From Aridibaculum aurantiacum (GTDB lineage Bacteria > Bacteroidota > Bacteroidia > Chitinophagales > Chitinophagaceae), in NCBI RefSeq assembly GCF_017355875.1, contig NZ_JAFEWC010000001.1:806001-870000 (forward strand): a stretch of 64,000 bases of DNA, read 5' to 3'. Below, piece after piece: positions 6,239 through 61,792 of this stretch (within the stretch, counting starts at the first letter, position 1; each line of letters begins with the position of its first letter). Made by a program: the position numbers and the translations under genes. The notes under the pieces were generated by a model. The model ran no database searches and was not told the origin of the DNA. It saw only the letters and a list, made by a program, of their open reading frames with translations.

Positions 6239-7255
6239 ATGAAAACATTAGTATGTACCCGTCCGGGTCAATTTGATTACGAAGAAGGTGTGAGGCCTGA
6301 ACTACAAAAAGGTCATGCTATCATCAAAATAAAACGAGTGGGTATCTGTGGTACCGACCTTCATGCATACGAAGGCACACAACCTTTTTTTGAATATCCA
6401 CGCATATTGGGTCATGAGTTGGCTGGTGAACTGGTAGAGTTTGATGATGCACCAGGGTTTGAGGTAGGCGAAAGGGTTTCTTTCATCCCTTACTTCAATT
6501 GCGGTGAATGTATTGCATGCCGCTCAGGTCTTCCTAACTGTTGTGCAAATATCAAGGTATGTGGCGTGCATATGCACGGTGGCTTTGTGGAATATCTTTC
6601 AGTTCCATCTTATTCTTTGCTACATGGCGAAGGACTGAGTTATGATGAACTGGCCCTTGTAGAACCACTGGCAATTGGTGCGCATGGTGTACGTCGAGCT
6701 GGTGTACGTGAAGGTGAATTTGTGTTGGTAGTAGGCGCCGGTCCTATTGGTTTGGGTATTGCAGAGTTTGCACGCATAGCAGGAGGGAAAGTAATTGTAA
6801 TGGACATCAACGATCAGCGCCTTGCTTTTTGTAAAGAGAAGTTGCAGGTACCGCATACCATCAATCCATTGCAGGGAGATGCAATGCAGCAACTGAAGGA
6901 TATAACAAACGGAGATATGCCAACGGTTGTGATTGATGCAACAGGAAATTTGAAAGCTATCAATAACGGATTTCAATATATGGCGCACGGCGCACGGTAT
7001 GTGATGGTGGGCCTGCAAAAGAACGAGATCACTATCTCTCATCCTGAATTTCATAAAAGAGAAGCAACGCTGATGAGTAGCCGCAATGCTACAAGAGAAG
7101 ACTTTGAACATGTAATTGCTTCGATGAAGCAAGGATTGGTTAATCCGACAAACTATATCACCCATCGTGTTCCTTTCAGCCAGGTAAAAGCAGATTTTGC
7201 AAGCTGGTTAAAACCAGAGACCGGTGTTATCAAAGCAATGGTCGAGTTATCTTAA
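6239..7255 (+). CDS. Zinc-dependent medium-chain alcohol/sugar dehydrogenase
   Basis: 338 aa MDR-family dehydrogenase, cytoplasmic (no signal peptide). Catalytic zinc ligands C37 and the H59-E60 pair in GHE are present. The structural zinc lobe is C88-x2-C91-x2-C94-x7-C102. The Rossmann motif VVGAGPIGLG is followed by an acidic residue in VMDIND, which favours NAD over NADP. The family includes L-threonine, sorbitol, galactitol and L-galactonate dehydrogenases. Here it probably oxidises a hydroxyl of a sugar or aldonate released by the surrounding enzymes, for example a deoxy-sugar acid intermediate (inference). It is the only cytosolic gene in this glycosidase run and follows a repeat array. 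Confidence 0.88.
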   Translation: MKTLVCTRPGQFDYEEGVRPELQKGHAIIKIKRVGICGTDLHAYEGTQPFFEYPRILGHELAGELVEFDDAPGFEVGERVSFIPYFNCGECIACRSGLPNCCANIKVCGVHMHGGFVEYLSVPSYSLLHGEGLSYDELALVEPLAIGAHGVRRAGVREGEFVLVVGAGPIGLGIAEFARIAGGKVIVMDINDQRLAFCKEKLQVPHTINPLQGDAMQQLKDITNGDMPTVVIDATGNLKAINNGFQYMAHGARYVMVGLQKNEITISHPEFHKREATLMSSRNATREDFEHVIASMKQGLVNPTNYITHRVPFSQVKADFASWLKPETGVIKAMVELS

Positions 7256-10813: not shown

Positions 10814-13087
10814 ATGAAGTATCTCATTCAGTTCTGCTCGTTACTGCTGTTTACTGTTGCTGCTTTCGCTCAGCCTTCAGGCAAGCACGATCTACATTTT
10901 ACTTCTTTGGCTAAGTCATGGGATGAAGGCATTCCATTAGGTAATGGAATGGTAGGTGCTATTATATGGCAAAAGGACGGACGTCTTCGCTTTGCCTTAG
11001 ATCGTTCTGATCTTTGGGATGAACGACCGATGAAAGGTTTACACCGCCCGGAGTTTAGCTATGCATGGGTGCATGAGCAGGTAAAGAAGAATGACTATGC
11101 TGTTGTTCAAAAATATTTTGATGCACCCTACGACCGTGAAGCCGCGCCTTCAAAGATATCGGGAGGTGCTTTGGAATTTGAAAGTAAGGACTGGGGCGAA
11201 GCTGAAAGAGTACACTTGTCACTTACGAATGCAGTGGCCGAAGTAAAGTGGAAGAACGGAGTAGTGATGAAAACTTTTGTTCACGCTACGGAGCCTGTTG
11301 GCTGGTTCAGATTTGAAAATGTTACAGCTTCATTTGTTCCTGAGATAAAAACGCCTGGTTATAAAAACACCAAAGGATTGCCTTTGGATTCTCTAAAGAG
11401 CAACGACCCGGCGAAGCTTGGTTACGCCGAAGGAACGATAACCAAAGGCAACAACTCCATCACTTATATTCAGCTGGGATGGAATGGATTTGAATACCAA
11501 ATTGTAGTTGAATGGAAGCAGCTAGATGCTACCACTGTTGAAGGTGTATGGAGTGTGTCCTCCAATTATTACAAGCAGAATAAACCTGCTTCCAAGTATG
11601 TACAACAAGCTTTTAAAAGAACGTATAATAAGGACCTAACCACTCATGCAAACTGGTGGAAGGATTTCTGGAGTAAGTCCTCTATCAGTATTCCTGATGA
11701 AAACCTGGAGACGCAGTATTACCGCGAGCAATACAAGTTTGGAGCTACTGCCAGGAAAAATGCTCCTCCTATTTTGTTGCAAGGTGTATGGACCGCAGAT
11801 AATGGTCGCCTGCCACCGTGGAAAGGAGATTACCACCACGATCTGAATACAGAGATGAGTTACTGGCCAGCCTATAGCGGCAATCATTTAGATGAGGCCA
11901 TGTCATTCATCAATCATTTAGAAGACAACAAGGATAATTACAAGCGTTATACGAAGCTATACTTTGGTAACGATGGTATCAATGTACCGGGTGTAAGCAC
12001 ATTGAATGGAACAGAAATGGGCGGATGGATACAATATGCTTTATCGCCTACAGTTTCGGGTTGGCTGGCTCATCACTACTACCTGCAGTGGAAGTATAGC
12101 AACGATAAAAAGTTTCTGAAGGACAAGGCATACCCATGGTTTAGAGAAGTAGCTAAATACTTTGAAGGAATAACAGAGAAGAAGACAGACGGCTTTCGCG
12201 AACTGCCAATAAGCTCCAGCCCGGAGATCAATAACAATGCGATCAATGCATGGTTTACCAAAACAACTAACTACGACCTCTTCCTGATAAAGTTTGTATT
12301 TGCATCAGCGGCTGAAATGGCTACAGAGCTAAAGCAACCTTCTGAGGCTGACAGGTACCGTAAGATATTGTCGGAATTTAGAAATTATGAGCTGAATGCA
12401 AATAACGAGTTGATGTATGCGCCTGCATACGATTACAACGAATCGCATCGGCACTTTAGCCATGCTATGGCTATACACCCGCTGGGTTTGATAAAGTGGG
12501 AAGATGGAGAGAAATCGAGGACGATCATCAAAAACACCATAGCTAAGTTAGATAAGCTGGGTGGTGAGAACTGGAACGGCTACTCTTATTCATGGATGGC
12601 AAATATGAAAGCACGGGCAAAAGATGGCGAAGGTGCTGTAAAGGCTTTAGAGATTTTTGCAAAGGCTTTTACCTCTGTCAACAGCTTTCATGTTAATGGC
12701 GACCAGACAAAATCAGGATATAGCAAGCGTACCTACCGCCCCTTTACTCTTGAAGGCAACTTCGCCTTTGCATCAGGACTGCAGGATATGCTGCTGCAGA
12801 GCTATGCTGGCTTCATCGAAGTTTTTCCTGCTATTCCTTCATCATGGAAAAACACTTCCTTCACTACGCTTCGTGCTGAGGGTGCTTACCTGGTAAGTGC
12901 TACCATGAAAGATGGTAAGGTGAAGGAGGTGAAAATATATTCAGAGAAAGGAGGAACAACCAGGCTTAAGCTACCTGCTAGCAACTATACTGTTGCTTCA
13001 TCCAAAAGGGTTTATGTTTCAAAAATGCCGGGTGATTTTGTAGAGCTATGTTTCAAAAAAGATGGTGTAGTTGTTCTTAGCTTCTAG
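10814..13087 (+). CDS. Divergent GH95-like glycosidase
   Basis: 757 aa secreted protein with signal peptide (FCSLLLFTVAAFAQ). The N-terminal domain carries IPLGNGMVGA, and an (alpha/alpha)6 barrel follows. Against GH95 the general-acid Glu is kept (E471 in SSSPE). The N-x-N pair reads D343-x-N345 (HHDLNTEMSYW), and the Asp of FQIDGNFG is replaced by E647 (FTLEGNFAF). The normal-type GH95 at the start of the window keeps all these residues. The enzyme may therefore have altered specificity or mechanism. It directly abuts the previous stop (TAG-ATG). Function beyond "GH95-like" is inference. Confidence 0.8.
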   Translation: MKYLIQFCSLLLFTVAAFAQPSGKHDLHFTSLAKSWDEGIPLGNGMVGAIIWQKDGRLRFALDRSDLWDERPMKGLHRPEFSYAWVHEQVKKNDYAVVQKYFDAPYDREAAPSKISGGALEFESKDWGEAERVHLSLTNAVAEVKWKNGVVMKTFVHATEPVGWFRFENVTASFVPEIKTPGYKNTKGLPLDSLKSNDPAKLGYAEGTITKGNNSITYIQLGWNGFEYQIVVEWKQLDATTVEGVWSVSSNYYKQNKPASKYVQQAFKRTYNKDLTTHANWWKDFWSKSSISIPDENLETQYYREQYKFGATARKNAPPILLQGVWTADNGRLPPWKGDYHHDLNTEMSYWPAYSGNHLDEAMSFINHLEDNKDNYKRYTKLYFGNDGINVPGVSTLNGTEMGGWIQYALSPTVSGWLAHHYYLQWKYSNDKKFLKDKAYPWFREVAKYFEGITEKKTDGFRELPISSSPEINNNAINAWFTKTTNYDLFLIKFVFASAAEMATELKQPSEADRYRKILSEFRNYELNANNELMYAPAYDYNESHRHFSHAMAIHPLGLIKWEDGEKSRTIIKNTIAKLDKLGGENWNGYSYSWMANMKARAKDGEGAVKALEIFAKAFTSVNSFHVNGDQTKSGYSKRTYRPFTLEGNFAFASGLQDMLLQSYAGFIEVFPAIPSSWKNTSFTTLRAEGAYLVSATMKDGKVKEVKIYSEKGGTTRLKLPASNYTVASSKRVYVSKMPGDFVELCFKKDGVVVLSF

Positions 13088-13387: not shown

Positions 13388-13831
13388 ATGATACAGCAAA
13401 AATTTTTTGAAGAATTTGGACTCGGTGACGTACGCGAGACCATCGGAAGAACTATAACCGAGACTGATATCGTTATTCACGCTGGTCAAACAGGTGACTT
13501 TTTCCCACATCATATGGACGAAGAATGGTGCAAGACACAACCTTTTAAAAAGAGGATTGCCCATGGTACACTCATCTTTAGCATAGCAATAGGTAAGACT
13601 GCAGACATCATTAATGATGTAGCTATGACCTATGGCTATGAACGTCTTCGTTTTATCAAACCCGTATTCATTGGTGACACCATCACAGTGAAGGTGACCA
13701 TCAAAGACAAAAAGGATCACAAGAAGCCCGGCTATGGCCTCATTACCGAACTGGTGGAGACCTTTAACCAGGATGGCGATTTGGTGATGCTGTGCGAGCA
13801 CATCCTGCTTAGTCAAAAAAAGAATCCATAA
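13388..13831 (+). CDS. MaoC-family hotdog (enoyl-CoA hydratase-like) protein
   Basis: 147 aa single-hotdog protein, cytoplasmic. The hydratase-2 motif G-D-x-x-P-x-H-x-D is present as GDFFPHHMD, giving the catalytic pair D37 and H42. The AHGTLIFS helix follows, as in MaoC/PhaJ proteins. Such enzymes hydrate or dehydrate acyl-CoA thioesters. It is the first gene of a tight set with a binding-protein-fold protein (11-base gap) and two CoA-transferases, so it likely acts on the CoA ester they make. The acyl group is unknown. Confidence 0.85.
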
Positions 13832-13842
13832 AACTTTTAGCG

Positions 13843-15012
13843 ATGGCTAAAACCATATTGAATGGGATCACATGGAATCACAGTCGTGGCATTAGTCCAT
13901 TGCTTGCTGTATCCCAGCGTTTTTCAGAAATATATCCGGATGTAGAGTTTCGCTGGAAAAAGCGAACCCTGCAGGAGTTTGCTGATTATCCAATTGAACG
14001 ACTAACTGAACACTATGACCTGCTGATCATCGATCATCCATGGGTAGGATGTGCAGCAGCAACAGGCTGTGTACTTCCGCTCGATAAATATTTATCTGCT
14101 GATTTTTTACAAGACCAGTTGAATAATTCGGTGGGTGGATCACACGAGAGCTATAACTATGGTGGCCACCAGTGGGCTTTGGCTATTGATGCTGCTACAC
14201 CGGTTGCCAGTTATCGTGCAGACCTACTTAAGAAGAACGACGTACAGGTTCCAACAACATGGAACGAAGTGCTGGATCTTGCCCGCAAGGGTAAAGTAGC
14301 AGTGCCTGCTATACCTATAGACCTGCTGATGAATTTTTACATGTTCTGCATAGCACACGGTAAAGAGCCTTTTGCTAATGAAGAGCAGGTGATTGATTAT
14401 TCAACTGGCATGAAGGCGCTGGAAACAATGCGTGAACTGTATAGCCTGGTGGATAAGGATATGTTTGGGCATAACCCAATTGCAGTAGCAGAGTTGATGT
14501 CGATGACTGATGACTACTGGTATTGTCCTTTTGCTTATGGCTATTCAAACTATTCAAGGAAAGGATATGCGCGCAACGTGCTGCACTATACTACAACAGT
14601 AAATTTTACGGATGGAAAGCCATTGCGAAGTACAATAGGTGGAACAGGTCTTGCGATCTCTGCCTTTAGCCAGAACAAGGCTGCAGCATTGGTCTTTGTA
14701 GAAATGATGTTGTCTGCTTGTTGCCAGTCTACTCTGTATGTGGAGACAGGAGGACAGCCAGGACATCGTGCAGCATGGGAAAGTGACACCGCAAATTTGC
14801 TAACAAATAACTACTTCAAAAATGTGCTTCCTGCCATGCAGAACGGCTATATAAGACCGCGCTACAATGGCTACCTGCACTTCCAGGACCACGCTGGTAA
14901 TCCTATTCAGAATTACCTGAAGAATGGTGGAGATGCGTTTAAAGTTTTGAATGAAATAAATGACATGTACAGGCAGAGCCTTGTAAATAAAAATTCAACT
15001 GTGCTGATATGA
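13843..15012 (+). CDS. Solute-binding-protein-fold protein lacking an export signal
   Basis: 389 aa with the pattern of family-1 carbohydrate ABC binding proteins: FSEIYPDVEFRW near the N-terminus, YDLLIIDHPW, a PTTWNEVLDLARKG hinge-helix segment, and STIGGTGLAIS in the second lobe. Binding proteins of this family are normally exported, but this one starts MAKTILNGITWNHSRG with no hydrophobic segment and no lipobox. No ABC permease or ATPase lies in the window. The stop overlaps the next CoA-transferase start (ATGA), which implies translational coupling. It may bind a small carbohydrate or acid in the cytosol as a sensor, chaperone or enzyme subunit (inference). Confidence 0.8.
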   Translation: MAKTILNGITWNHSRGISPLLAVSQRFSEIYPDVEFRWKKRTLQEFADYPIERLTEHYDLLIIDHPWVGCAAATGCVLPLDKYLSADFLQDQLNNSVGGSHESYNYGGHQWALAIDAATPVASYRADLLKKNDVQVPTTWNEVLDLARKGKVAVPAIPIDLLMNFYMFCIAHGKEPFANEEQVIDYSTGMKALETMRELYSLVDKDMFGHNPIAVAELMSMTDDYWYCPFAYGYSNYSRKGYARNVLHYTTTVNFTDGKPLRSTIGGTGLAISAFSQNKAAALVFVEMMLSACCQSTLYVETGGQPGHRAAWESDTANLLTNNYFKNVLPAMQNGYIRPRYNGYLHFQDHAGNPIQNYLKNGGDAFKVLNEINDMYRQSLVNKNSTVLI

Positions 15013-16190
15013 ATAAGTTGCCATTAGATGGTTTGGTTGTGTTGGATTTCAGCCAGTATTTGTCAGGTCCGTCGGCCGCACTGCGACTTGCCGACCTGGG
15101 TGCAAGAGTGATAAAAGTAGAGCGTCCTAAAGTAGGTGATGCAGGACGTAATCTTGCTATAAAAAACCTTTGGGTTGATGATAGCAGTTTGTTGTTTCAC
15201 ACCATCAACAGGAACAAAGAAAGCTTTGCTGCAAATCTTAAAGATGCAGATGATCTAATACTGATAAAAAAGCTGATAAAGAAGGCGGATGTAATGATCC
15301 ACAACTTTCGCCCGGGTGTAATGGAGAAAGTAGGTTTAGGATATGAAGATGTAGAGGCCATCAACCCGCGAATAGTTTATGGCGAAATAACAGGCTATGG
15401 CAAACAAGGCCCATGGAAAAACAGGCCAGGACAAGACCTGTTGCTGCAGTCGCTGACCGGTTTAGCCTATACAAGTGGAAACGATTATCACGATCCTGTT
15501 CCCTTTGGATTAGCCATTGCTGACAGCCTTTGCGGCGCACAATTAGTGCAAGGCATCTTAGGTTCTCTTATTCGTCGTGCAAAGACAGGTAAAGGAGCTT
15601 TAATAGAACTGAGCCTGATGGAGTCGCTCCTAGATTTCCAGTTTGAATTGCTGACTACCTATCATACAAGTGGCCGCTTACCTAAGCGAAGCGGTATCAA
15701 TAACGGTCATCCATTGTTAAGTGCTCCTTATGGTATTTATAAAACCACTGATGGTTATATAGCTGTTGCAATGGCTTCGCTTGATGTATTGGCGACAGCT
15801 ATTAATTGCGAAGCGCTCAAAGCATTTAGCCAGGAAGAAGCTTTCTGCAAGCGGGACGAGATCAAGATGATCATCTCTCATTGCCTGCGCAACGATTCTT
15901 CTGCTTACTGGCTTGAAAAGCTACATGCGCAAAATTTGTGGGCAATGGAAGTACTGGATTGGAAGCGCCTTACAGAACATGAAGCGTATCGCTGCCTGCA
16001 AATGGAACAAACACTTAATGCAGCAAATGGCAAGAAGATAATTACAACAAGATGCCCTATACGTTTTAACGGAGAGCGAATATTTTCAGACAGGCCGGCC
16101 CCGCAACTAGGAGAGGATAATGAAAAGATCATGAATGAAATTTTAAACCACACGCAGGATGAAGCCATTGCAGGATATTGTAGTCGTTGA
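15009..16190 (+). CDS. CaiB/BaiF family CoA-transferase, first copy
   Basis: 393 aa class III CoA-transferase. Family signatures are present: VVLDFSQYLSGPSAALRLADLGARVIKVE at the N-terminus (a segment of ~29 residues from about position 9), NFRPGVMEK, and GLAIADSLCG with the nucleophile-position D172. That position corresponds to the Asp which forms the aspartyl-CoA anhydride in formyl-CoA transferase. Members move CoA between carboxylic acids, and some also racemise or feed hydratases. It is coupled to the binding-protein gene by an ATGA overlap and overlaps the second copy by 32 bases. The two copies are clearly paralogous along their length. They may form a heteromer. Confidence 0.88.
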   Translation: MNKLPLDGLVVLDFSQYLSGPSAALRLADLGARVIKVERPKVGDAGRNLAIKNLWVDDSSLLFHTINRNKESFAANLKDADDLILIKKLIKKADVMIHNFRPGVMEKVGLGYEDVEAINPRIVYGEITGYGKQGPWKNRPGQDLLLQSLTGLAYTSGNDYHDPVPFGLAIADSLCGAQLVQGILGSLIRRAKTGKGALIELSLMESLLDFQFELLTTYHTSGRLPKRSGINNGHPLLSAPYGIYKTTDGYIAVAMASLDVLATAINCEALKAFSQEEAFCKRDEIKMIISHCLRNDSSAYWLEKLHAQNLWAMEVLDWKRLTEHEAYRCLQMEQTLNAANGKKIITTRCPIRFNGERIFSDRPAPQLGEDNEKIMNEILNHTQDEAIAGYCSR

Positions 16191-17307
16191 TTTTAGCCAG
16201 TTTTTATCTGGCCCTTCTGCTGCGCTTCGCCTTGCAGACATGGGTGCGCAAGTGATAAAAATTGAACGGCCAGGTACAGGTGATATATGCAGGCAGCTGT
16301 ATGTATCAGACATAATGATAGAAGGCGAGTCTACCATTTTTCACGCTATCAATCGTAACAAGCAGAGTTATGCTGCTGACCTAAAGAAGCAGGATGATCT
16401 TGAAAAAGTAAAGCAGATATTGGCTAAGGCTGATGTTATGCTGCACAACTTCAGGCCGGGTGTAATGGAGCGGATAGGCCTTGATTATGCAACTGTAAAA
16501 GCCATCAATCCAAACATTGTTTATGCTGAAGTAACCGGCTATGGCTCGGAAGGTCCCTGGAAGGATCTACCGGGGCAAGACCTTTTACTTCAAGCAGTAT
16601 CAGGTGTTACGTGGCTTACCAATAATAACCAGGACGATCCTACACCAATGGGTGTAGCAGTTGTAGATATCCTTGCAGGCACACATGTGGCGCAGGGTAT
16701 ATTGGCTGCGCTTTATAAAAAAGCAATGACAGGCGAAGGATCTTCGGTACAGGTGAGTATGTTGGAAAGCATTCTTGATTTCCAGTTCGAAGTGCTTACC
16801 TGCTATTACAACGATGGTAAGCAACTACCGGTAAGAAGTTCGGTTAATAATGGGCACGCGTATATTTCTGCTCCCTATGGTATCTATAAAACCACCGACG
16901 GCTTTCTTTCTTTAGCTATGGGAAATATATTGGCGCTTGCTGAATTGCTTGGTTGTGTTGGGTTGAAAAAATACGTGGACAGTGCTGATTGGTTTACCAA
17001 GCGCGATGAGATAAAAGAAGTGTTGGCTCAGCATCTTGCCACCAATTCCACTGATCATTGGCTTGCTATCTTAGAGCCGGCAGACATATGGTGTGCTAAG
17101 GTGATGAACTACGAACACCTGATGCAGGAGATGGCTTACAAAACGCTGAACATGGAGTTGAAGGTGAAGACGAGCAATGGCTTGTCAATCAAGACTACGC
17201 GATGTCCTATCCGTATTGATGGAGAATTCTTTACTTCTGAAGTAGGAGCGCCGCTGCTTGGCGAACACAACCTGCAGATAGAAAAACAATTTGGATTAAT
17301 TTCCTAA
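16159..17307 (+). CDS. CaiB/BaiF family CoA-transferase, second copy
   Basis: 382 aa paralogue of the preceding gene, starting inside its last 32 bases. It shares the N-terminal DFSQ(F/Y)LSGPSAALRLAD block, NFRPGVMER and the VAVVDILAG segment with nucleophile-position D170. Both copies keep this Asp, so neither looks like a dead subunit. The ends also match (TTRCPIR followed by a G-E-x-F/I segment). A strong terminator follows 6 bases after the stop, closing the unit MaoC - binding protein - CoA-transferase pair. Substrate unknown; context suggests a sugar-derived acid (inference). Confidence 0.88.
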   Translation: MKPLQDIVVVDFSQFLSGPSAALRLADMGAQVIKIERPGTGDICRQLYVSDIMIEGESTIFHAINRNKQSYAADLKKQDDLEKVKQILAKADVMLHNFRPGVMERIGLDYATVKAINPNIVYAEVTGYGSEGPWKDLPGQDLLLQAVSGVTWLTNNNQDDPTPMGVAVVDILAGTHVAQGILAALYKKAMTGEGSSVQVSMLESILDFQFEVLTCYYNDGKQLPVRSSVNNGHAYISAPYGIYKTTDGFLSLAMGNILALAELLGCVGLKKYVDSADWFTKRDEIKEVLAQHLATNSTDHWLAILEPADIWCAKVMNYEHLMQEMAYKTLNMELKVKTSNGLSIKTTRCPIRIDGEFFTSEVGAPLLGEHNLQIEKQFGLIS

Positions 17308-17370: not shown

Positions 17371-18222
17371 ATGCCGCTACCTATAATAGATACCCATGTT
17401 CATGTTTGGGATTTTGACCATGCAGAATATGAATGGCTGAATGGTGATACATCTATTCTCAACCGTACATACAAGATCGAAGAACTGTCTGCCATTCGTG
17501 CAGAAGCTGGTGTTAGCCACGGTGTACTGGTACAAGCCGCCAATAACTTTGAAGATACAGACTGGATGCTGCACGTGTCATCTACTACCGATTGGATAAG
17601 TGGTGTAGTCGGTTGGGTGCCGCTGGTTGATCCACACCATGCAGGGCGTGCTTTAGAGAAGTACATGCAAAACCCTTACTTCAAGGGCATTCGACATCTT
17701 ATACATAACGAGGCGGATGACCAGTGGCTGTTGCAGCATACTGTTGTTGAAAGTTTGCAATTACTGGAGCATTATGGGCTTCCTTACGATGTGGTAGGTA
17801 TCAATACACGGCACATTGAAACTGCACTAAAGGTGGCAGAAAAAGTACCGGGATTGAAGATGGTATTTGATCACCTGAACCAGCCACCGATTGCTGCTAA
17901 ACAACTTTATGGTGAGTGGGGTGAAATGATGGCAGTAGCTGCACAACATCCAAACTTCTATGCAAAAATTTCTGGTCTTTGTACAGCTTCAGGTAACTTC
18001 ACCGGCTGGACGAAGGACGATCTTGCACCTTATATCAATTTTGCTTTACAACATTTTGGCGCGCATCGCTGCTTCTGCGGAGGCGACTGGCCTGTTTCAT
18101 TATTAGCCGGTAGCTATACGCACACATGGCATGCATACCAGGATATACTAAGCAACCTGCTAAGCGAGGATGAACTAAGGAAAGTCTACTTCGACAATGC
18201 CAAAGACTTTTACAGAATTTAA
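17371..18222 (+). CDS. Amidohydrolase-2 family sugar lactonase (L-fucono/L-rhamnono-lactonase-like)
   Basis: 283 aa cytoplasmic TIM-barrel hydrolase of the COG3618 type. Metal and active-site signatures: DTHVHVWD at the start, KGIRHLIH, VFDHLNQPP and CGGDWPVS near the end. Characterised relatives open 1,4- or 1,5-lactones of L-fuconate, L-rhamnonate or similar acids in the non-phosphorylated deoxy-sugar pathways. The RhaT-like permease follows 24 bases later, which supports a 6-deoxy-hexose substrate. It sits right behind a terminator, so it needs its own promoter or read-through; no clear promoter motif was seen in the short gap. Confidence 0.85.
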   Translation: MPLPIIDTHVHVWDFDHAEYEWLNGDTSILNRTYKIEELSAIRAEAGVSHGVLVQAANNFEDTDWMLHVSSTTDWISGVVGWVPLVDPHHAGRALEKYMQNPYFKGIRHLIHNEADDQWLLQHTVVESLQLLEHYGLPYDVVGINTRHIETALKVAEKVPGLKMVFDHLNQPPIAAKQLYGEWGEMMAVAAQHPNFYAKISGLCTASGNFTGWTKDDLAPYINFALQHFGAHRCFCGGDWPVSLLAGSYTHTWHAYQDILSNLLSEDELRKVYFDNAKDFYRI

Positions 18223-18246: not shown

Positions 18247-19299
18247 ATGGATGTTATTACAGGAGTGCTACTGCATGCCATCGGGGCAACGTCTGCTGCG
18301 CTATGCTATACGCCGCAAAAGAAAGTTGTACGATGGTCGTGGCAAACGTATTGGCTTGCGCAGGCTTTTATCTGCTGGCTGTTGTTACCGATTGTTGTTG
18401 CACTCATCACTATTCCCAATATTGCACAAGTACTTAGCGAAGCGCCAACCAGTGCTATGGTAAGATCTTTTGCTCTTGGTGCCGCGTATGGTGTTGGAGG
18501 TACAGCATTTGGTCTTGCTATTCGTTATCTAGGCTTTTCACTTACATATGCTATTTCTGTAGGTATATCGTGTGTACTGGGTACACTGCTACCACCATTT
18601 ATTCGCGGCGAGTTGAATACTATTGTTAGCAGGTATGGCGCCGAGTGGATCATGTATGGTATAGCAATAGGAGTACTGGGAATTATACTGTGCGGCTCTG
18701 CAGGCAGGCTAAAAGAAAAAGATATTTCAAACCAACAGGACGATACTTCTTTTTCATTTGCAAAAGGATTACCGTTAAGTATAATGGCAGGTGTGCTCTC
18801 TGCATTTTATGGTTTTGCATTAGACCAGGGACAACCCATTGCTGATGTTGCAGCCAAATATGGCGCAGGAAACTTGCAAGGAAATGTGATCTATATTTTC
18901 TCCAATACAGGTGCATTTATTACTACACTCATTTACTGTCTTTACTTGCATAAAAAACATCGTACAGCTCACGAGTATACCTCTGTTGGTGGTGGAAAGC
19001 AGCGGTTGCTGACCTTCAATTATGCACTTGCTATTCTTACAGGCTTCTTATGGTATGGGCAATTTTTCTTCTATGGCCTTGGACATGTGCGAATGGGTAC
19101 TTACCAATTTAGTAGCTGGGCTATTCACATGATCATGCTGGTATTATTTAGTGCAGTAGCAGGATTGCTCATGCGTGAATGGAGCCGCGTGCAAAAGCGA
19201 ACAGCATTCGTGTTGGCGCTTGCGCTGCTGGTACTTATTGCTGCAGTACTCACACTTACTTATGGCAATTATTTAGGCAGTGTACCTGCGGCCCATTAG
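18247..19299 (+). CDS. RhaT-like L-rhamnose/H+ symporter
   Basis: 350 aa integral membrane protein with about ten hydrophobic helices. The N-terminal GVLLHAIGATSAALCYTPQKKV and the GAAYGVGGTAFGLAIRYLG segments are typical of the RhaT family (drug/metabolite transporter superfamily). A second half carrying GVLSAFYGFALDQGQP repeats the topology. It probably imports L-rhamnose or a related 6-deoxy sugar freed by the rhamnosidase or the GH95 enzymes. It lies between the lactonase and the Gfo/Idh oxidoreductase on one strand. Symbol withheld because substrate identity is inferred. Confidence 0.85.
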   Translation: MDVITGVLLHAIGATSAALCYTPQKKVVRWSWQTYWLAQAFICWLLLPIVVALITIPNIAQVLSEAPTSAMVRSFALGAAYGVGGTAFGLAIRYLGFSLTYAISVGISCVLGTLLPPFIRGELNTIVSRYGAEWIMYGIAIGVLGIILCGSAGRLKEKDISNQQDDTSFSFAKGLPLSIMAGVLSAFYGFALDQGQPIADVAAKYGAGNLQGNVIYIFSNTGAFITTLIYCLYLHKKHRTAHEYTSVGGGKQRLLTFNYALAILTGFLWYGQFFFYGLGHVRMGTYQFSSWAIHMIMLVLFSAVAGLLMREWSRVQKRTAFVLALALLVLIAAVLTLTYGNYLGSVPAAH

Positions 19300-19377: not shown

Positions 19378-20451
19378 ATGATCAACGTTAGCTTCAGTTC
19401 GCCTTCGCCAAAGACTTCGAAACCTATTTACATTATTGGTGCAGGAGGCATAGTGAACGAAGCGCATTTGCCTGCTTATAAACTGGCAGGCTTTACGGTA
19501 GCAGGTATTTACGACATCAATGTAGAGAAGGCAAAAGCAACAGCTGATAAACACGGCATATCAAAAGTCTTTTCAAGTCTCCAGGAAATGATAGCACACG
19601 CTTCGTCGGATACCGTTTACGATGTTGCTTTGCCCGGATCAGCTTTGGTAGAAGTACTGGAACAGTTACCTCATGGAGCTGCAGTACTTATGCAAAAGCC
19701 TATGGGTAATGATCTTGCTGAGGCCAAAAGAATATTGGCAATAACAAGAGAAAAGAAGATGATAGCTGCTGTCAACTTCCAGCTGCGATATGCTCCATTC
19801 ATTAATGCAGCGCGTGATATGATAGTGCAAGGACTGATAGGCGAATTGGTGGATATAGAAGTGAATGAAAACGTTTATACGCCATGGCATAAATGGGATT
19901 TTCTTTTTTCACTGCCTCGTGTAGAGATACTCTATCACAGCATTCATTTTGTTGACGTGATCAGGAGCTTTATGGGAAACCCAACTTCTGTTTATGCTAA
20001 AACCATAAAGCATCCATTGATGAATGAACTGGCTTCAGTTCGTTCTAATATTATCCTGGATTATGGTGATCGTATAAGAGCAAACATATTAACCAACCAC
20101 ACACACCAGTTTGGTTTACACAACCAGCAGTCGTATATAATGTTTGAAGGCACTCGAGGTGCTATAAAAATCAGGATGGGTTTGCTGATGGCTTATCCTG
20201 AAGGTGTACCTGATGTTTTTGAATATGTATTGCTGGAAGAGGGAAGCGAACCTGTTTGGAAGACATTGGAGATAGATGGCAAGTGGTTTCCTCATGCCTT
20301 CATAGGTAGTATGGCCCAGGTAATCCTGGCAGCGGAGGGTACCATACAACAGCCGTGCAACTCTGTAGAAGATTGCATTTACACGATGGCTTGTGTAGAA
20401 GCCGCCTATACTTCTAGTGAAAAGGGCGGTACGCCATTGGAGAAAATATAA
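19378..20451 (+). CDS. Gfo/Idh/MocA-family oxidoreductase
   Basis: 357 aa NAD(P)-dependent sugar oxidoreductase, cytoplasmic. The N-terminal Rossmann fold contains IIGAGGIVNEAHLPA and an acidic YDIN after the second strand. The family EKP motif appears as QKPMG. The substrate domain holds the conserved His region (EILYHSIHFVD). Relatives act on inositols, glucose-6-phosphate, fucose or rhamnose. As the last gene of the lactonase-permease run it could be the sugar 1-dehydrogenase that makes the lactone (inference). It converges with the AraC gene, with only 5 bases between the stops. Confidence 0.85.
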   Translation: MINVSFSSPSPKTSKPIYIIGAGGIVNEAHLPAYKLAGFTVAGIYDINVEKAKATADKHGISKVFSSLQEMIAHASSDTVYDVALPGSALVEVLEQLPHGAAVLMQKPMGNDLAEAKRILAITREKKMIAAVNFQLRYAPFINAARDMIVQGLIGELVDIEVNENVYTPWHKWDFLFSLPRVEILYHSIHFVDVIRSFMGNPTSVYAKTIKHPLMNELASVRSNIILDYGDRIRANILTNHTHQFGLHNQQSYIMFEGTRGAIKIRMGLLMAYPEGVPDVFEYVLLEEGSEPVWKTLEIDGKWFPHAFIGSMAQVILAAEGTIQQPCNSVEDCIYTMACVEAAYTSSEKGGTPLEKI

Positions 20452-20456
20452 TCTTC

Positions 20457-21359
20457 TTAATCCTTTTTTACCGACCGATATTTTGTTGGCGACATTCCGA
20501 TAACCTTGGAGAAACGCCGGGAGAAATAGTACGGGTCATCAAAGCCCATAGTAAGTGCTATTTCTTTGATGGATCGATCAGAAAAGTCCAGTTCCTGGCA
20601 AGCCTTCTGCATTTTCATTTGTATAAAATAATCAATGGGCGCATAACCTGTCTTATGTTTAAAAAGGCTGGAAAAGCGGGAAGGCGAATAGTTGAAGTGC
20701 AGGCTCAACTCATTTAGCGATATATTATCGTTGATGTGCTCCTGCATAAATAGTATGGCCCGGTCTACAGGATTGGTCTTATCTGTAGGACTTATAACAT
20801 AATGTTTAGAATTGAAGATGAACAGCGTGATGAAGTGAAGCAGGCACATATTGGCAAACATCAGGTTGTCGATACTATAGCCTAATTCAAGCGTTTTGTA
20901 CATCTTTGAGAATGCTATCGGGATGTCATTGCTGTTCTTTATGTGAAATGGTTTCAGGTGTGTTTGTACAGTTTGCAGCTCATTGAAATGCGCTAAAAGA
21001 TCGCCGCCAAAGTGGATCCAATAGATACTCCATGGATGATCTACAGAGCTACCATAAGCATGCGCAACATTACGCGGAAGTATAAAAAATTCGTTGGGTC
21101 CTACGTTGTATTGCTTATCATCTATTTTGTACCAACCATTCCCATCCACGCAGTAAAAAAGGAAGTTTTCTGGTAGTCCTTTTTTTCTTGATGTGTAATG
21201 CCCTGCTGCTTTTGGATAATAGCCGAGGCTGCACAGATACAGCTGCTTCAGCAGCGCATTATTTAGTACCCGCGACTTCAAAACTGGTTTAGGTATCTCT
21301 ATCCGTTGGCGCCCCAGGCCATACCATATATTCTTGTGCGATCCGCCTTTTTGATCCAT
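20457..21359 (-). CDS. AraC-family transcriptional regulator
   Basis: 300 aa, the only minus-strand gene. An N-terminal cupin-type sensor domain (ENFLFYCVDGNGWYKID, GPNEFFILPRNVAHAYG) is followed by a C-terminal double HTH (LNELSLHFNYSPSRFSSLFK; IKEIALTMGFDDPYYFSRRF; ending GMSPTKYR). I chose the ATG at 21359; the reading frame extends to a TTG at 21428 without added domain. This is the only regulator in the window. It is a good candidate for sensing a monosaccharide such as rhamnose or fucose and for driving the neighbouring metabolic genes, and perhaps the divergent polysaccharide genes. Confidence 0.9.
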   Translation of the reverse strand: MDQKGGSHKNIWYGLGRQRIEIPKPVLKSRVLNNALLKQLYLCSLGYYPKAAGHYTSRKKGLPENFLFYCVDGNGWYKIDDKQYNVGPNEFFILPRNVAHAYGSSVDHPWSIYWIHFGGDLLAHFNELQTVQTHLKPFHIKNSNDIPIAFSKMYKTLELGYSIDNLMFANMCLLHFITLFIFNSKHYVISPTDKTNPVDRAILFMQEHINDNISLNELSLHFNYSPSRFSSLFKHKTGYAPIDYFIQMKMQKACQELDFSDRSIKEIALTMGFDDPYYFSRRFSKVIGMSPTKYRSVKKD

Positions 21360-21766
21360 AATGTTGTTCCTGTTTTTTACGTCTTGAGTGTGCAGATATT
21401 GGTAAAGCCCATGTCGCTGTTTAAGCAATACTTTGTTTCACTTACGCATGTTCATCAGCGCATTTCCGGTTTCAAATATAAAGTGGAAAAATAGTTAAAT
21501 CATCCATCATCATAGTAAAAGATTACATTGTTTCCGCTCTTGTACCAAACTACTTTTATGTTCTAAGAATAACGGTAGTGATGGATGAATTTCACATTTT
21601 CTTACACACTACAAGAACTAACGATTAACAGTAGAAAGGAACATGCTTGCCGAAATCTTCACAAAGACTTCCCAGCATTCAAATTCAGATCATGTAGGTG
21701 CCGCTTAAATCGGCGGTAAAAAAGTAAAGTTTACCCGGGGCTTTTTGTGCCCCTAAATGAAAATTG
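21360..21766. other. Divergent regulatory region
   Basis: About 400 bases between the AraC start and the first DUF3826 gene. It should hold promoters for both directions. It contains a minus-strand TATATTTG box (21473-21480), a small hairpin GCCGCTTAAATCGGC near 21700 and GGGGCTTTTTGTGCCCC just before the DUF3826 start. No gene is evident. Confidence 0.55.
21473..21480 (-). promoter_or_regulatory. Candidate Bacteroidota -7 box for the AraC gene
   Basis: On the minus strand the bases read TATATTTG, an exact match to the Bacteroidota TAnnTTTG -7 element, ~114 bases before the chosen start. No good TTTG -33 partner was found at 19-20 bases, so this is tentative. Confidence 0.3.
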
Positions 21767-39811: not shown

Positions 39812-40477
39812 ATGAAATCTTTCCGCTTCATATTCTGCCTTCTTGTTTCACTAATTTATTTAAGTGAGGTGGCATTCAGTCAAGATCATTTAAATGGCAA
39901 TGGTACCACAAGTACAGCAGCAAACAGGGCTAAACAATTGGTAGACGCCTTAGGTATCAATGATCTTGAAAAAAGATCAAGAACCAATGCTATCATTAAC
40001 CGGCATCTCGACAGCTTAGAAGTTATCTTCAAAGACAGGGCAAAAGCAGTAGAAAGTGCGGGTAAAGCTGAAACTAAGGAACTTTCAAATTTCAGGGGAA
40101 GGAGTGCATGGGATGCTGCGAACGGTAGGTTAAATAAAGTGCATGCTGTTTTCTTAGGTCGTCTTTCTACCGAACTTACAGCAGAGCAAATTGAAACGCT
40201 GAAGAATGCAATGACTGAAAATGGAATGATCAGGGAGTATAACAACTACCTCGATCTGTTTCCAAATCTTGCCAGTTACCAGAAGGAGCAACTTATGGCC
40301 TACCTGCGTGAGGCAAGAGACAATGCAATGAATGCAGAAACAGCTGGCCAAAGAAAAGAATGGTTTATTAAGTACCGCGGAAGGGCAAATAACTTCCTGT
40401 CAGCAGCAGGTTATGATCTAAGAAAGGCAACAGACGAACAACAGAAACGAAAGGCCAATAAATCAAAAGAACAGTAA
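39812..40477 (+). CDS. Secreted DUF3826 protein, copy 2
   Basis: 221 aa with signal peptide (FIFCLLVSLIYLSEVAFSQ). Landmarks parallel copy 1: LGINDLEKRSRTNAII, LSTELTAEQIETLKNAMTEN, AYLREARDNAMNAET and KYRGRANNFLSAAGYDLRKA. It is helical and charged with no catalytic motif seen. It lies 21 bases after PL1 copy 3 and 4 bases before the beta-helix/barrel gene, so it belongs to the same transcript. Function unknown. Confidence 0.8.
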   Translation: MKSFRFIFCLLVSLIYLSEVAFSQDHLNGNGTTSTAANRAKQLVDALGINDLEKRSRTNAIINRHLDSLEVIFKDRAKAVESAGKAETKELSNFRGRSAWDAANGRLNKVHAVFLGRLSTELTAEQIETLKNAMTENGMIREYNNYLDLFPNLASYQKEQLMAYLREARDNAMNAETAGQRKEWFIKYRGRANNFLSAAGYDLRKATDEQQKRKANKSKEQ

Positions 40478-43630: not shown

Positions 43631-45025
43631 ATGATTAAGCGTAATTATTTAAAGCTGTTAGTAGCATGTATGCTGGTGTCGTTGTGTTCAAATGCACAAG
43701 TAGGTAACAGCATGGGTTTGAAAATTTCACCTGATAAAAGGTTTTTCACCGACAAGGAAGGCAAGCCGTTCTTTTGGTTGGGCGATACCGGCTGGTTGTT
43801 GTTTAGCAAGCTAGACAGGAAAGAGGCGGAGAAGTACCTGGAAGACAGGCGCGCTAAAGGTTACAATGTTATACAGGCGATGGTGCTTCATACGGTGGCT
43901 GCTAAGAATGTTTATGGTGATTCTGCACTGGTTAGAAAAAGTGTTGCAAAACCTGTTACGCCTGCAGGTAACAATCCTGCTGTAGAAGCTGAATATGATT
44001 ATTGGGATCATATAGATTATATGGTTGACCTGGCCGCACAAAAAGGGCTGTACATGGCGCTGGTGCCTATCTGGGGAAGCAACGTAAAAGCAGGTTCAGT
44101 TAGTCGTGACGAGGCAAGAAGCTATGCACAGTTTTTGGCTGAGCGTTATAAGCAAAAGCCAAATATTATCTGGCTGAACGGAGGTGATATACACGGAACA
44201 GATTCTATGGCAACATGGAAGATCATAGGCGAGACACTTCGTAAACATGATCCTAATCACCTGATCACTTTTCATCCGTTTGGACGTACTACATCAAGCC
44301 AGTGGTTTCACAATGAAGAGTGGCTGGATTTCAACATGTACCAAAGCGGACATAGAAGTTATGACCTTGACACGTCCAGGAAAGAGTGGCGGTTTGGCCC
44401 GGACAACTACAAGTTCACCAACATGGATTATAATTTGAAGCCCACCAAGCCTACACTGGATGGTGAACCTTCGTACGAGCTTATACCTTATGGTCTGCAC
44501 GATACAACAAAGCCTTACTGGAATGCCAACGATATGCGACGCTATGCATACTGGAGCGTGTTTGCTGGTGCTGCAGGTCATACTTACGGACACAACAGTG
44601 TAATGCAGATGCATAAGCCGACAGATAAAGGAAGCGCTTATGGAAGCAAAAAATATTGGGATGCGGCCCTCAATGATAGTGGTGCAGCGCAGATGGTTCA
44701 TGTAAAAAATCTCATTCTTTCTAAACCTTATTTTGATCGTGTTCCTGATCAAAGCTTGATTGCAGGAAAGCAGGGTGAGAAGTATGACTACCTGCTGGCA
44801 ACACGTGGAAAAGACTATGCTTTTATCTACACCTACACCGGCAAGAATTTCAAGGTAAACATGGGTAAGGTTAATGGAGATAAAGTGAAGGCTTCATGGT
44901 ACAATCCAAAGAACGGGCAATCAACTTTGTTGAAAACAGTTTCAAATAAAGGCACCCGCAAATTCAATCCTCCGGGTAAACCCGCAGAGGGAAATGATTG
45001 GGTGTTGGTGTTAGAGAGTTTATAA
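43631..45025 (+). CDS. GH140-like apiosidase (DUF4038)
   Basis: 464 aa secreted TIM-barrel enzyme. The signal peptide is followed by KISPDKRFFTDKEGKPFFWLGDTGWLL-like DUF4038 landmarks. Candidate catalytic pair: D186 in LNGGDIHG and E279 in LDGEPSYE. The spacing matches, as I recall it, that of the characterised rhamnogalacturonan-II apiosidase. The C-terminal ~90 residues form the usual beta-sandwich (SWYNPKNG). The predicted role is release of D-apiose-linked side chains from galacturonan. It starts 8 bases after the beta-helix/barrel gene and is followed by a REP pair. Confidence 0.85.
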   Translation: MIKRNYLKLLVACMLVSLCSNAQVGNSMGLKISPDKRFFTDKEGKPFFWLGDTGWLLFSKLDRKEAEKYLEDRRAKGYNVIQAMVLHTVAAKNVYGDSALVRKSVAKPVTPAGNNPAVEAEYDYWDHIDYMVDLAAQKGLYMALVPIWGSNVKAGSVSRDEARSYAQFLAERYKQKPNIIWLNGGDIHGTDSMATWKIIGETLRKHDPNHLITFHPFGRTTSSQWFHNEEWLDFNMYQSGHRSYDLDTSRKEWRFGPDNYKFTNMDYNLKPTKPTLDGEPSYELIPYGLHDTTKPYWNANDMRRYAYWSVFAGAAGHTYGHNSVMQMHKPTDKGSAYGSKKYWDAALNDSGAAQMVHVKNLILSKPYFDRVPDQSLIAGKQGEKYDYLLATRGKDYAFIYTYTGKNFKVNMGKVNGDKVKASWYNPKNGQSTLLKTVSNKGTRKFNPPGKPAEGNDWVLVLESL

Positions 45026-46225: not shown

Positions 46226-46999
46226 ATGGACAATAAAAATTCAAGAAGAAGTTTTATCAGGAATACATCTTTGGCAGGTGCATTTGGCCTTGCCCTTCCT
46301 TCTATCGTATCTGCAGCATTTGAAGGTGAAAATGCTACCAGGCTAAAGAAGAAGATCAGGATTGAAAAAGATGATGTGATCCTGTTCCAGGGTGATTCAA
46401 TAACGGACAGTGGCAGAAAGAAAGATGATATGAACTACAACACAGCTGGTGCTTTTGGTAATGGTTATGCATTGATTGCTGCTTCTGAGCTATTATATCG
46501 GGCCGGTGATAAAAATCTGAAGATCTATAACAAAGGAATTAGCGGAAATAAAGTTTACCAACTAGCAGAGCGGTGGGATAAAGATGCTATAGATCTAAAG
46601 CCAACGGTGCTAAGCATATTGATTGGAGTTAATGACTTTTGGCATAAGCTAAACGGTAGGTATGACGGCACTGTAAAGGTTTACAGGGATGATTATAAAA
46701 AACTACTGGATCGTACAAAGCAAGCGCTGCCTGATGTGAAGCTGATCATAGGTGAACCTTTTGCTGTTACAGGTATCAAAGCTGTTGACGATAAATGGTA
46801 TCCTGAATTCAATGAATACCGTGCTGCAGCGCGTGAAGTAGCTGATCAGTATGATGCAGTGTTCATTCCTTATCAAAGCGTGTATGATAAAGCACAACAA
46901 AAAGCACCGGGTGTTTACTGGACACATGATGGTGTACATCCAAGTTTAGCTGGTGCAAGATTAATGGCCGAGGCGTGGTTGGAGACAGTCAAGGTGTAA
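46226..46999 (+). CDS. SGNH/GDSL esterase with Tat signal (CE12-like, rhamnogalacturonan acetylesterase-type)
   Basis: 257 aa. The N-terminus has a twin-arginine motif (SRRSFIR) and a hydrophobic segment (LAGAFGLALPSIVSA), so Tat export is likely, unlike its Sec-dependent neighbours. SGNH blocks: GDSIT with nucleophile S58, the Gly block in KGISGNKV, GVND, and the D235-x-x-H238 pair in DGVHPS. It would remove acetyl groups from rhamnogalacturonan or other pectin and open it to the lyases and glycosidases. An acetylesterase on another pectic sugar is possible. Confidence 0.86.
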   Translation: MDNKNSRRSFIRNTSLAGAFGLALPSIVSAAFEGENATRLKKKIRIEKDDVILFQGDSITDSGRKKDDMNYNTAGAFGNGYALIAASELLYRAGDKNLKIYNKGISGNKVYQLAERWDKDAIDLKPTVLSILIGVNDFWHKLNGRYDGTVKVYRDDYKKLLDRTKQALPDVKLIIGEPFAVTGIKAVDDKWYPEFNEYRAAAREVADQYDAVFIPYQSVYDKAQQKAPGVYWTHDGVHPSLAGARLMAEAWLETVKV

Positions 47000-56199: not shown

Positions 56200-56215
56200 A
56201 AAACAAGTTTTCTAT

Positions 56216-56932
56216 ATGAAAAAGTTCATCGTTTCTTCAATGGTCCTTGCTGCAGTTGTCTTTGGCAATGCAGTATATAGTCAATCCACTACAGTTACTC
56301 CGGAAGCAAAAGCTGCGGAGGCAAAATTAAAATCTGATGAAGGTTTAGATAAGAAAGCTGATGAGTGGGTAAAGAGTCTTAGCCTGAATGATGCTGCTAA
56401 AGAAGCAAGGGTACAGGCTGTGATTGCAACTCATCTAAAAACTATTCGCGACTGGCATAATGAACATCCGCCTGCTACTGTTCCGGCAGGTATAAACCCT
56501 GTTACAGGCAATAAGCTAAGCGATCTTGACAGGCAAATCATTGCTAATTCAGCAATGCCTAAATCAGTTCATGAGAACCTGATGAATGGACTCCGTAAAG
56601 ATCTTACAGAAGAGCAAGTAGAAGCGATTCTTGATAAATACACCATTGGTAAAGTAGCGTTTACCATGAAGGCTTATAAAGAGATCGTTCCTAACATGAC
56701 AGAGAAAGAAGAAGCAACCATTCTTGGCTACCTGAAGCAGGCACGTGAGCAGGCTGTTGATTATAAGAACATGAACCAGATATCTGCCATCTTCGAGATC
56801 TATAAGACAAAGAGTGAGCAGTTCTTGAATAACAATGGCCGTAGCTGGAGACAGATGTACAAAGAATATACAGATGCATTGAAAGCTAAGAAAGCAGCAG
56901 ATAAAGCAGCCGCTGAAAAGGCAAATCAATAA
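56216..56932 (+). CDS. Secreted DUF3826 protein, copy 3
   Basis: 238 aa. The ATG at 56216 directly precedes the signal peptide (VSSMVLAAVVFGNAVYSQ); a longer frame from 56156 overlaps the GH78 gene and is rejected. It has the family layout with LSLNDAAKEARVQAVIATHL, LRKDLTEEQVEAILDKYT, GYLKQAREQAVDYKN and EQFLNNNGRSWRQ. An Ala/Lys-rich tail (ALKAKKAADKAAAEKANQ) is absent from the other two copies. Function unknown. It is cotranscribed with GH78. Confidence 0.8.
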   Translation: MKKFIVSSMVLAAVVFGNAVYSQSTTVTPEAKAAEAKLKSDEGLDKKADEWVKSLSLNDAAKEARVQAVIATHLKTIRDWHNEHPPATVPAGINPVTGNKLSDLDRQIIANSAMPKSVHENLMNGLRKDLTEEQVEAILDKYTIGKVAFTMKAYKEIVPNMTEKEEATILGYLKQAREQAVDYKNMNQISAIFEIYKTKSEQFLNNNGRSWRQMYKEYTDALKAKKAADKAAAEKANQ

Positions 56933-61778: not shown

Positions 61779-61792
61779 ACTGATTGAAGACC

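Follow-up and report, generated by a model that had tools for sequence, protein, structure and literature searches.

A cytosolic solute-binding-fold protein is linked across phyla to CaiB/BaiF CoA-transferases and a hydratase, in a module that may dehydrate a deoxy-aldonate

What would a sugar-binding protein do among enzymes of coenzyme A (CoA) chemistry? The question is raised by a 64,000-nucleotide stretch of the Aridibaculum aurantiacum genome (GCF_017355875.1, contig NZ_JAFEWC010000001.1, positions 806,001 to 870,000; hereafter the window), in which genes for a MaoC/PaaZ-type hydratase, a family-1 solute-binding-fold protein (SBP) and two CaiB/BaiF class III CoA-transferases (CaiB1 and CaiB2) form a four-gene core. 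An earlier reading of the DNA letters (the original prediction) held that this combination fits no known pathway. Our analysis speaks against that view, as the module appears to fit a definable slot, the dehydration of an aldonate. The association itself is real and crosses phyla. As for its function, we tentatively propose, with a little less than even confidence, that the module is a CoA-thioester route dehydrating a deoxy-aldonate, likeliest L-fuconate or a close relative. By analogy, CaiB1/CaiB2, SBP and MaoC would act like CaiB/CaiD and replace an enolase-superfamily dehydratase.

Linkage of these genes is conserved well beyond the close relatives of the window. SBP was found (E ≤ 1e-20) in 16 of 296 Bacteroidota genomes, and the CaiB pair (two matches each, E ≤ 1e-100) in the identical 16, including one (G286) in which the two lie ~60 kb apart. 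This 16-of-16 match is phylogenetically clumped and is hence given without a probability. SBP was also present in 25 of 147 genomes of the window's family. Among plasmid records, 152 contained SBP (E ≤ 1e-5) and 160 contained CaiB2 (E ≤ 1e-60), with SBP/CaiB2 tallies of 91/90 for Sinorhizobium, 9/9 for Ensifer, 7/7 for Azospirillum, 5/5 for Roseibium and 3/3 for Streptomyces. We assembled 78 distinct SBP loci, comprising the window, 26 genome-contig loci, 15 plasmid stretches hand-picked from >150 records, 15 phylum stretches and 22 family stretches, minus one duplicate (L097). CaiB lay at most 6 kb from SBP in 69 of the 78, from Bacteroidota to Proteobacteria and Streptomyces, and in 65 was its immediate neighbor on the same strand. 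Neighboring SBP and CaiB genes overlapped by exactly 4 bases in 44 of 62 pairs measured, in either order (54 with SBP first, 8 with CaiB first). Of the 69 CaiB loci, 57 had MaoC, 10 a crotonase homologue, 65 a hydratase of either kind and 58 a Gfo/Idh/MocA dehydrogenase (Gfo); those without a hydratase were L008 (at a contig edge), L049, L115 and L116. In many genomes, then, SBP goes together with CoA-transferases and a hydratase, and chance linkage is ruled out by the same 16 of 296 genomes and by the proximity of CaiB in 69 of 78 loci.

The window shows the commonest gene order, MaoC-SBP-CaiB1-CaiB2-AmH-RhaT-Gfo, where AmH is a COG3618-type amidohydrolase and RhaT a deoxyhexose/H+ symporter; an alternative in Bacteroidota is SBP-CaiB-CaiB-SBP2-Gfo-MaoC-transporter, in which SBP2 is a second SBP family. 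Identity to the window SBP was ~50-75% in most Bacteroidota loci and 38-40% in a few (L106-L108). It was 35-39% in proteobacterial deoxyhexose-type loci and ~31-34% where crotonase takes the hydratase position; below those it was at most 27%, as judged from 60 plasmid rows sampled across the ranking.

In the window, all four open reading frames are present as originally predicted (Table 1), as are the 11-base gap between MaoC and SBP, the ATGA overlap of SBP with CaiB1 and the 32-base overlap of CaiB1 with CaiB2. Their Pfam families (MaoC_dehydratas, SBP_bac_1/SBP_bac_8 and, twice, CoA_transf_3) were all matched above cut-offs, SBP_bac_1 at 58.5 bits. The terminator closing the unit is real, with a 12-pair stem, an 8-base loop, a U-rich tail and a folding energy of -19.6 kcal/mol that none of 200 shuffles equaled in stability; it was absent from the list of a simple consensus scan. 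Gene order kept in relatives extends past this terminator through AmH, RhaT and Gfo.

The most unusual member of the module is SBP, which had been described as lacking an export signal. This description withstood scrutiny: the open frame encodes 399 amino acids against 389 in the protein, leaving just 10 in-frame codons upstream, and family-wide conservation of the N-terminus reaches nearly to the start Met. Specifically, 8-12 residues precede an invariant Trp11 in 70 of 75 aligned sequences (one row is a duplicate). The remaining five have 2 (L109 and L116, whose annotated starts are probably late), 7 (two sequences) or 16 (one). At four loci of Proteobacteria, the start codon of SBP and the stop codon of the preceding CaiB gene share bases. 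A hydropathy control was weak, as two of the five ABC-linked SBPs that served as exported controls scored low and their annotated starts look truncated. Absence of an ABC transporter, also part of the original prediction, holds for the window module, which has no ABC permease, but not for proteobacterial loci, which often have sugar ABC importers nearby. Those importers are served by an SBP of their own; of five checked, three have an evident leader and two have annotated starts that look truncated.

As predicted from a model of the L002 protein, which is 70% identical, SBP has the fold of sugar-binding proteins, with TMt of 0.84 to MalE3 (6dtq) and 0.83 to 7ofy (range 0.80-0.84 for 6dtq, 7ofy and 5iai); the profile match with 5iai spans positions 55 to 371. 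Across 31 aligned sequences, 34 columns are invariant and include Trp11, His13, Arg15, Asp64, Asp116, Tyr234, Tyr237, Arg338 and Arg340. We read these residues as a conserved, predicted ligand cleft that would fit an acidic sugar. The module SBP thus shares its fold with the family-1 binding proteins of ABC importers (MalE3, SmoF and 5iai), but it lacks a signal peptide, is tied to CoA-transferases and, in the window module, comes without a cognate permease. SBP2 is likewise leaderless and sits with CaiB and Gfo at L055 5485-6723 (-), L043 15661-16788, L044 15436-16668 and L109 2432-3619 (-). It occurs in 9 of the 296 Bacteroidota genomes, all within the 16 with SBP. At the level of loci, SBP2 (14 of 78) and the window-type AmH (39 of 78) never appear together, a pattern in which SBP2 might stand in for the lactonase.

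Both CoA-transferases match the CoA_transf_3 profile over its full length (1-366 of 366) and are 51% identical to each other. Asp172 of CaiB1 and Asp170 of CaiB2, each putatively the catalytic Asp by analogy with formyl-CoA transferase, are present in 51 of 51 and 73 of 73 aligned sequences, respectively (one duplicate row in each). CaiB1 matches the structure of SUGCT (9br6, E 2e-54), and other matches in the Protein Data Bank (PDB) include CaiB structures, alpha-methylacyl-CoA racemase and 2-methylfumaryl-CoA isomerase. The idea of a CoA-transferase heteromer is favored by a single natural CaiB1-CaiB2 fusion of 783 amino acids (L095) and by co-varying distances (r 0.943, as with all distance correlations here over 45 loci), which together suggest a CaiB1/CaiB2 heterodimer. 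A model of the tandem (pTM 0.72, pLDDT 70.6) fits an interlocked pair without discriminating, and homodimers are a possible alternative. Most proteobacterial loci viewed have a single CaiB beside SBP. SBP distances track those of CaiB1 and CaiB2 (r 0.855 and 0.853) above those of MaoC and Gfo (0.69 and 0.70), and MaoC and Gfo track each other (r 0.847). On this basis we infer that SBP, CaiB1 and CaiB2 are a physical unit, a pattern that shared inheritance could also give.

The hydratase of the window has 4ffu as its closest PDB chain (E 5.4e-52) and a presumably catalytic Asp-His pair. Asp37 is found in 62 of 62 aligned MaoC sequences and His42 in 58 (one row is a duplicate); the four exceptions are second MaoC copies with Val, and one further sequence deviates solely at residue 44. 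The MaoC domain and the Asp-His pair are held in common with PaaZ and mesaconyl-CoA hydratase. However, the module protein stands alone at 147 amino acids and falls under the cut-offs of both models (93.6 bits against 562.8 for the PaaZ C-terminal domain, 21.5 against 26.5 for mesaconyl-CoA hydratase).

The hydratase partner alternates between MaoC and crotonase, two unrelated folds beside the same CaiB-SBP pair. Crotonase homologues occur at L045, L060, L061, L064, L106 and L110-L114, their identity resting on an NCBIfam check for L111, L106 and L060 and on annotation for L045, L110, L111 and L112. In the first flavor of the module (the window, most Bacteroidota loci, and rhizobia and their relatives), MaoC accompanies deoxyhexose genes, with L-rhamnose mutarotase in the proteobacterial clusters. 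The second flavor is CaiB-SBP-crotonase, as in Pseudosulfitobacter (L111), S. meliloti LMB1 (L112), Streptomyces (L113) and Azospirillum (L114), with an SDR in all four loci and aldose 1-epimerase and FAH in three each. Because two unrelated hydratase folds accompany the same pair, the chemistry of the module would be hydration or dehydration of a CoA ester. This swap is the best evidence for such chemistry, and it strengthens the earlier suggestion that MaoC acts on a CoA ester. A Bacteroidota cluster resembling the second flavor (L106, genome G333) has SBP, crotonase, an M24-family protein, CaiB, an SDR and a UxuA-like gene in one run and, by sight of N-termini, an RraA-like protein, a PfkB-type kinase and an Entner-Doudoroff-type aldolase.

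Where might such chemistry be needed? The Azospirillum operon runs SDR-CaiB-SBP-crotonase-FAH-ALDH-ABC next to a LacI gene, and its sugar ABC importer has its own SBP. In L111, the FAH matches 9kkt (a FAH family protein) with E 1.2e-113 and 2-keto-3-deoxy-D-arabinonate dehydratase with E 3.7e-19. No IlvD/EDD or MR/MLE gene was found among the open reading frames scanned in L113 and L114 (14 with Pfam in the latter) or in the listed annotation of L111, nor did tblastn with MR/MLE queries return any in these three loci. In L112, an enolase-type gene is present on the other strand. Set against the layout of the Weimberg pathway, CaiB-SBP-crotonase in L111, L113 and L114 looks like it fills the place of the aldonate dehydratase.

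A similar gap is apparent for L-fucose in the window genome. A cluster 46-51 kb past the window end (L119 7644-12384; C1 916.1-920.9 kb) encodes FucP and L-fucose dehydrogenase, both over cut-off, together with another SDR, a FAH (336 bits) and an L-fuconolactonase-like protein (290 bits), the latter two below cut-off. In L056, a module with FucP over cut-off faces a FAH (diketo-acid hydrolase-like, 378 bits, cut-off 500), a zinc alcohol dehydrogenase (Zn-ADH), an SDR and an L-fuconolactonase-like gene (268 bits, cut-off 400). The window has a Zn-ADH 60.7% identical to the one in this facing cluster. Every step of oxidative L-fucose breakdown therefore seems to have a candidate gene in the window genome save L-fuconate dehydratase. 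The module has no MR/MLE gene, and the only one in the genome is most like DgcA/epimerase models; the single IlvD/EDD of the genome is presumably IlvD. In those sections of PMC5507952 and PMC13406643 that describe the non-phosphorylative L-fucose pathway of Xanthomonas, the dehydration is assigned to FucD. The window genome and L056 share with that pathway genes for a sugar dehydrogenase and for fuconolactonase-like, 2-keto-3-deoxy-acid dehydrogenase-like and diketo-acid hydrolase-like proteins, but the window genome has CaiB-SBP-MaoC where no FucD-type enolase-superfamily dehydratase was found in the MR/MLE and IlvD/EDD families.

The transporters also bear on the substrate. RhaT (at least 40% identity) occurs in 31 of the 78 loci and a FucP-like permease in 10, never together. 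We prefer L-fuconate over L-rhamnonate or L-galactonate because RhaT and FucP alternate and because fuc genes face the module. L-rhamnose may have its own route in the window genome, which encodes a 65% homologue of an L-rhamnose-isomerase-like protein matching TIGR02629 and TIGR02635 at 503 and 424 bits, below cut-offs; RhaA (PF06134) was absent from 12 of 12 genomes searched. Of the ligands first suggested, a sugar acid is thus retained, more likely of the L-fuconate type, and galacturonate has become less likely.

Under the proposed route, RhaT (FucP in some relatives) would bring in the sugar, Gfo would oxidize it to the lactone and AmH would open the lactone. The CaiB1/CaiB2 heterodimer would then move CoA onto the aldonate, and MaoC, or crotonase in the second flavor, would take water from C2-C3 to give the 2-keto-3-deoxy-acyl-CoA. 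CaiB would hand the CoA to the next aldonate, freeing the 2-keto-3-deoxy acid, which Zn-ADH or SDR and then a diketo-acid hydrolase would turn into pyruvate and lactate. Cytosolic SBP is envisaged as binding the open-chain aldonate and presenting it to CaiB, and perhaps also as stopping the aldonyl-CoA from lactonizing and losing CoA. Free aldonyl-CoA would tend to do just that, which could be the reason for a protein that grips the open chain. The reaction, the CoA donor, the ligand of SBP and its contact with CaiB are all parts of this scheme that we place by inference.

Comparable systems are known. Carnitine dehydration by CaiB/CaiD combines crotonobetainyl-CoA:carnitine CoA-transferase with a crotonase. 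As in that system, a class III CoA-transferase is co-encoded with a hydratase, and the module is proposed likewise to dehydrate a hydroxy acid as its CoA ester with recycling of CoA. The module differs in its sugar-acid context, its MaoC (crotonase in the second flavor), its two CaiB paralogues in Bacteroidota and its cytosolic SBP. Benzylsuccinate CoA-transferase BbsEF has an aromatic substrate and is not known to work with an SBP. BbsEF is also of class III, and its PDB entry 9fn0 has two different subunit sequences; as for the module, the Asp is retained in CaiB1 as well as in CaiB2.

Several observations weigh against this proposal. The matches of AmH, FAH and fuconolactonase all lie below curated cut-offs, that of AmH being its sole NCBIfam match (L-fucono-1,5-lactonase, 147.7 bits, cut-off 400). 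The search that found no FucD-type dehydratase in the window genome took in MR/MLE and IlvD/EDD but not UxuA, altronate dehydratase or others. Of 12 module genomes checked out of the 16, the 11 other than that of the window have 2-9 MR/MLE genes, and two of the 12 have a second IlvD/EDD. Six proteobacterial CaiB loci also have MR/MLE genes within the 19-25 kb viewed (L-fuconate dehydratase plus another MR/MLE enzyme in four, an MR/MLE enzyme in the other two), which means that the module does not replace such a dehydratase in every case. CaiB is missing from the vicinity of SBP in nine of the 78 loci (L005, L006, L007, L010, L014, L017, L059, L107 and L108). A search of eight genomes, with those of L007 and L010 outside it, placed CaiB elsewhere in the genomes of L014, L059, L107 and L108 (only 38% identical for L108), and the CaiB of G333 was the one already known from L106. 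No CaiB (E ≤ 1e-30) was detected in three Sediminibacterium-type metagenome-assembled genomes (L005, L006 and L017), and SBP is therefore not strictly a CaiB subunit. Finally, a read-through SBP-CaiB1 fusion model (L002, pTM 0.56) predicted SBP well and CaiB poorly, with no confident contact.

These observations bear on other explanations. SBP might be an independent cytosolic ligand-binder for sugar acids or lactones, such as a buffer, a mutarotase-like helper or a sensor, that is merely co-regulated with CaiB and MaoC. We regard this as a minority possibility, encouraged by the three genomes without CaiB, by the failure to model a complex, and by L005, L006, L007, L010 and L017, where SBP is flanked by an MR/MLE gene and by a gene for a Na+/solute symporter (SSF). 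It does not readily account for the overlaps of 4 bases between SBP and CaiB genes, seen in two phyla and whichever gene comes first, or for SBP co-varying more tightly with CaiB than with MaoC or Gfo. These five loci form a third context of the leaderless SBP, and L006 additionally has PhyH, UxuA and RraA family genes. CaiB and MaoC might instead perform other CoA-level chemistry, for example C2 epimerization or stereoconversion of an aldonate in the manner of alpha-methylacyl-CoA racemase, feeding an ordinary dehydratase with SBP as aldonate carrier. The racemases and isomerases among CaiB relatives and the six loci holding both module and MR/MLE enzymes would agree with this, yet 65 of 69 CaiB loci include a hydratase of one fold or the other, and no matching aldonate dehydratase turned up in what was scanned of the window genome or of the operons from Azospirillum, Streptomyces and Pseudosulfitobacter; we consider it unlikely.

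A further alternative is that the unit handles an acyl group (acetyl, feruloyl or hydroxyacyl) freed from pectin, in the form of its CoA esters, with the sugar genes as bystanders. Acyl acids are the usual substrates of CoA-transferases and MaoC, and the window encodes carbohydrate esterases (GDSL at 46226-46999, SASA at 49006-50436). However, no thiolase or acyl-CoA dehydrogenase was recognized among the window proteins scanned, which did not include every open reading frame, and the sole thiolase listed for the 12 plasmid stretches with annotation lies in an opposite-strand cluster of L047. The recurrent partners are sugar dehydrogenases, a lactonase, sugar transporters, mutarotase and 2-keto-3-deoxy-acid enzymes, which makes the acyl alternative improbable. 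Membership in the SBP_bac_1 fold family would also suit an exported ABC protein whose signal went unnoticed, or the decaying remnant of one. We reject this exceedingly improbable reading on the strength of the 10-codon limit, the short conserved N-terminus and the 34 invariant residues, along with the CaiB stop/SBP start overlap in four proteobacterial loci.

The features of the window that bear on the module are collected in Table 1. Apiosidase-like, BT_1020-like propeller, alpha-L-rhamnosidase and GH28 genes (43631-45025, 47156-49006, 53440-56199 and 58259-59902) suggest a pectin/rhamnogalacturonan-II locus around the module. The same carbohydrate region has two DUF3826 proteins (39812-40477 and 56156-56932). 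Two GH95 proteins are encoded in the window at 16-2271 and 10814-13087. A weak match to the L-fucose isomerase C-domain lies at 61784-63460 and is followed by a FAH-family gene (63849-64000) running off the window end.

Table 1. Module genes and associated features of the window, with coordinates counted from its first nucleotide.
Feature	Coordinates	Strand	Basis or remark
Zinc alcohol dehydrogenase (Zn-ADH), candidate for the 2-keto-3-deoxy-acid dehydrogenase step	6239..7255	+	Homology to L056 Zn-ADH
MaoC/PaaZ-type hydratase, 147 aa	13388..13831	+	PF01575, 87 bits
Leaderless family-1 solute-binding-fold protein (SBP), 389 aa, module core	13843..15012	+	PF01547/PF13416
CaiB/BaiF class III CoA-transferase CaiB1, 393 aa	15009..16190	+	PF02515, 315.6 bits
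CaiB/BaiF class III CoA-transferase CaiB2, 382 aa	16159..17307	+	PF02515, 329.7 bits
Intrinsic terminator stem-loop	17312..17343	+	Folding, z -4.87
COG3618-type amidohydrolase (AmH), probable aldonolactonase	17371..18222	+	PF04909; recurrent neighbor
RhaT-type deoxyhexose/H+ symporter	18247..19299	+	PF06379, 203 bits
Gfo/Idh/MocA dehydrogenase, probable aldose dehydrogenase of the module	19378..20451	+	PF01408
AraC-family regulator, candidate regulator	20457..21428	-	PF00165/PF02311; beside the module again in some relatives

We found no description of the module in the open full-text literature searched, subscription papers being outside that search. Its known kind is that of the CoA-transferase/hydratase dehydration systems, and cytosolic SBP is the new element. 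Generalizing beyond L-fucose, the module may represent a cross-phylum mode of aldonate dehydration. A CaiB/BaiF enzyme would make the CoA thioester with the help of an obligatory cytosolic SBP-fold subunit gripping the open-chain sugar acid, and MaoC or crotonase would dehydrate it. This would replace FucD- or IlvD-type enzymes in some Bacteroidota fucose pathways and some Weimberg-like pathways, with an ABC binding protein turned enzyme subunit. We hold this wider claim with more doubt than confidence.

Two published gaps give the module a possible place. The main text of PMC5507952 reports FucD as missing from the fuc locus of Algoriphagus marincola HL-49 (Bacteroidetes), and it describes an uncharacterized rhamnose pathway, encoded in a genome of the Rhodobacteraceae, that comprises RhaM together with six putative enzymes whose function is unclear. 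The words MaoC, CaiB and transferase are absent from that main text, figures and supplements aside. The module is a concrete candidate for the missing FucD step in the Bacteroidetes locus, and possibly for the Rhodobacteraceae rhamnose route. It makes both gaps as described there testable. If the proposal is true, many annotations of "extracellular solute-binding protein" and "CoA transferase" beside sugar genes may be expected to be wrong, and a binding protein would have been recruited into CoA enzymology.

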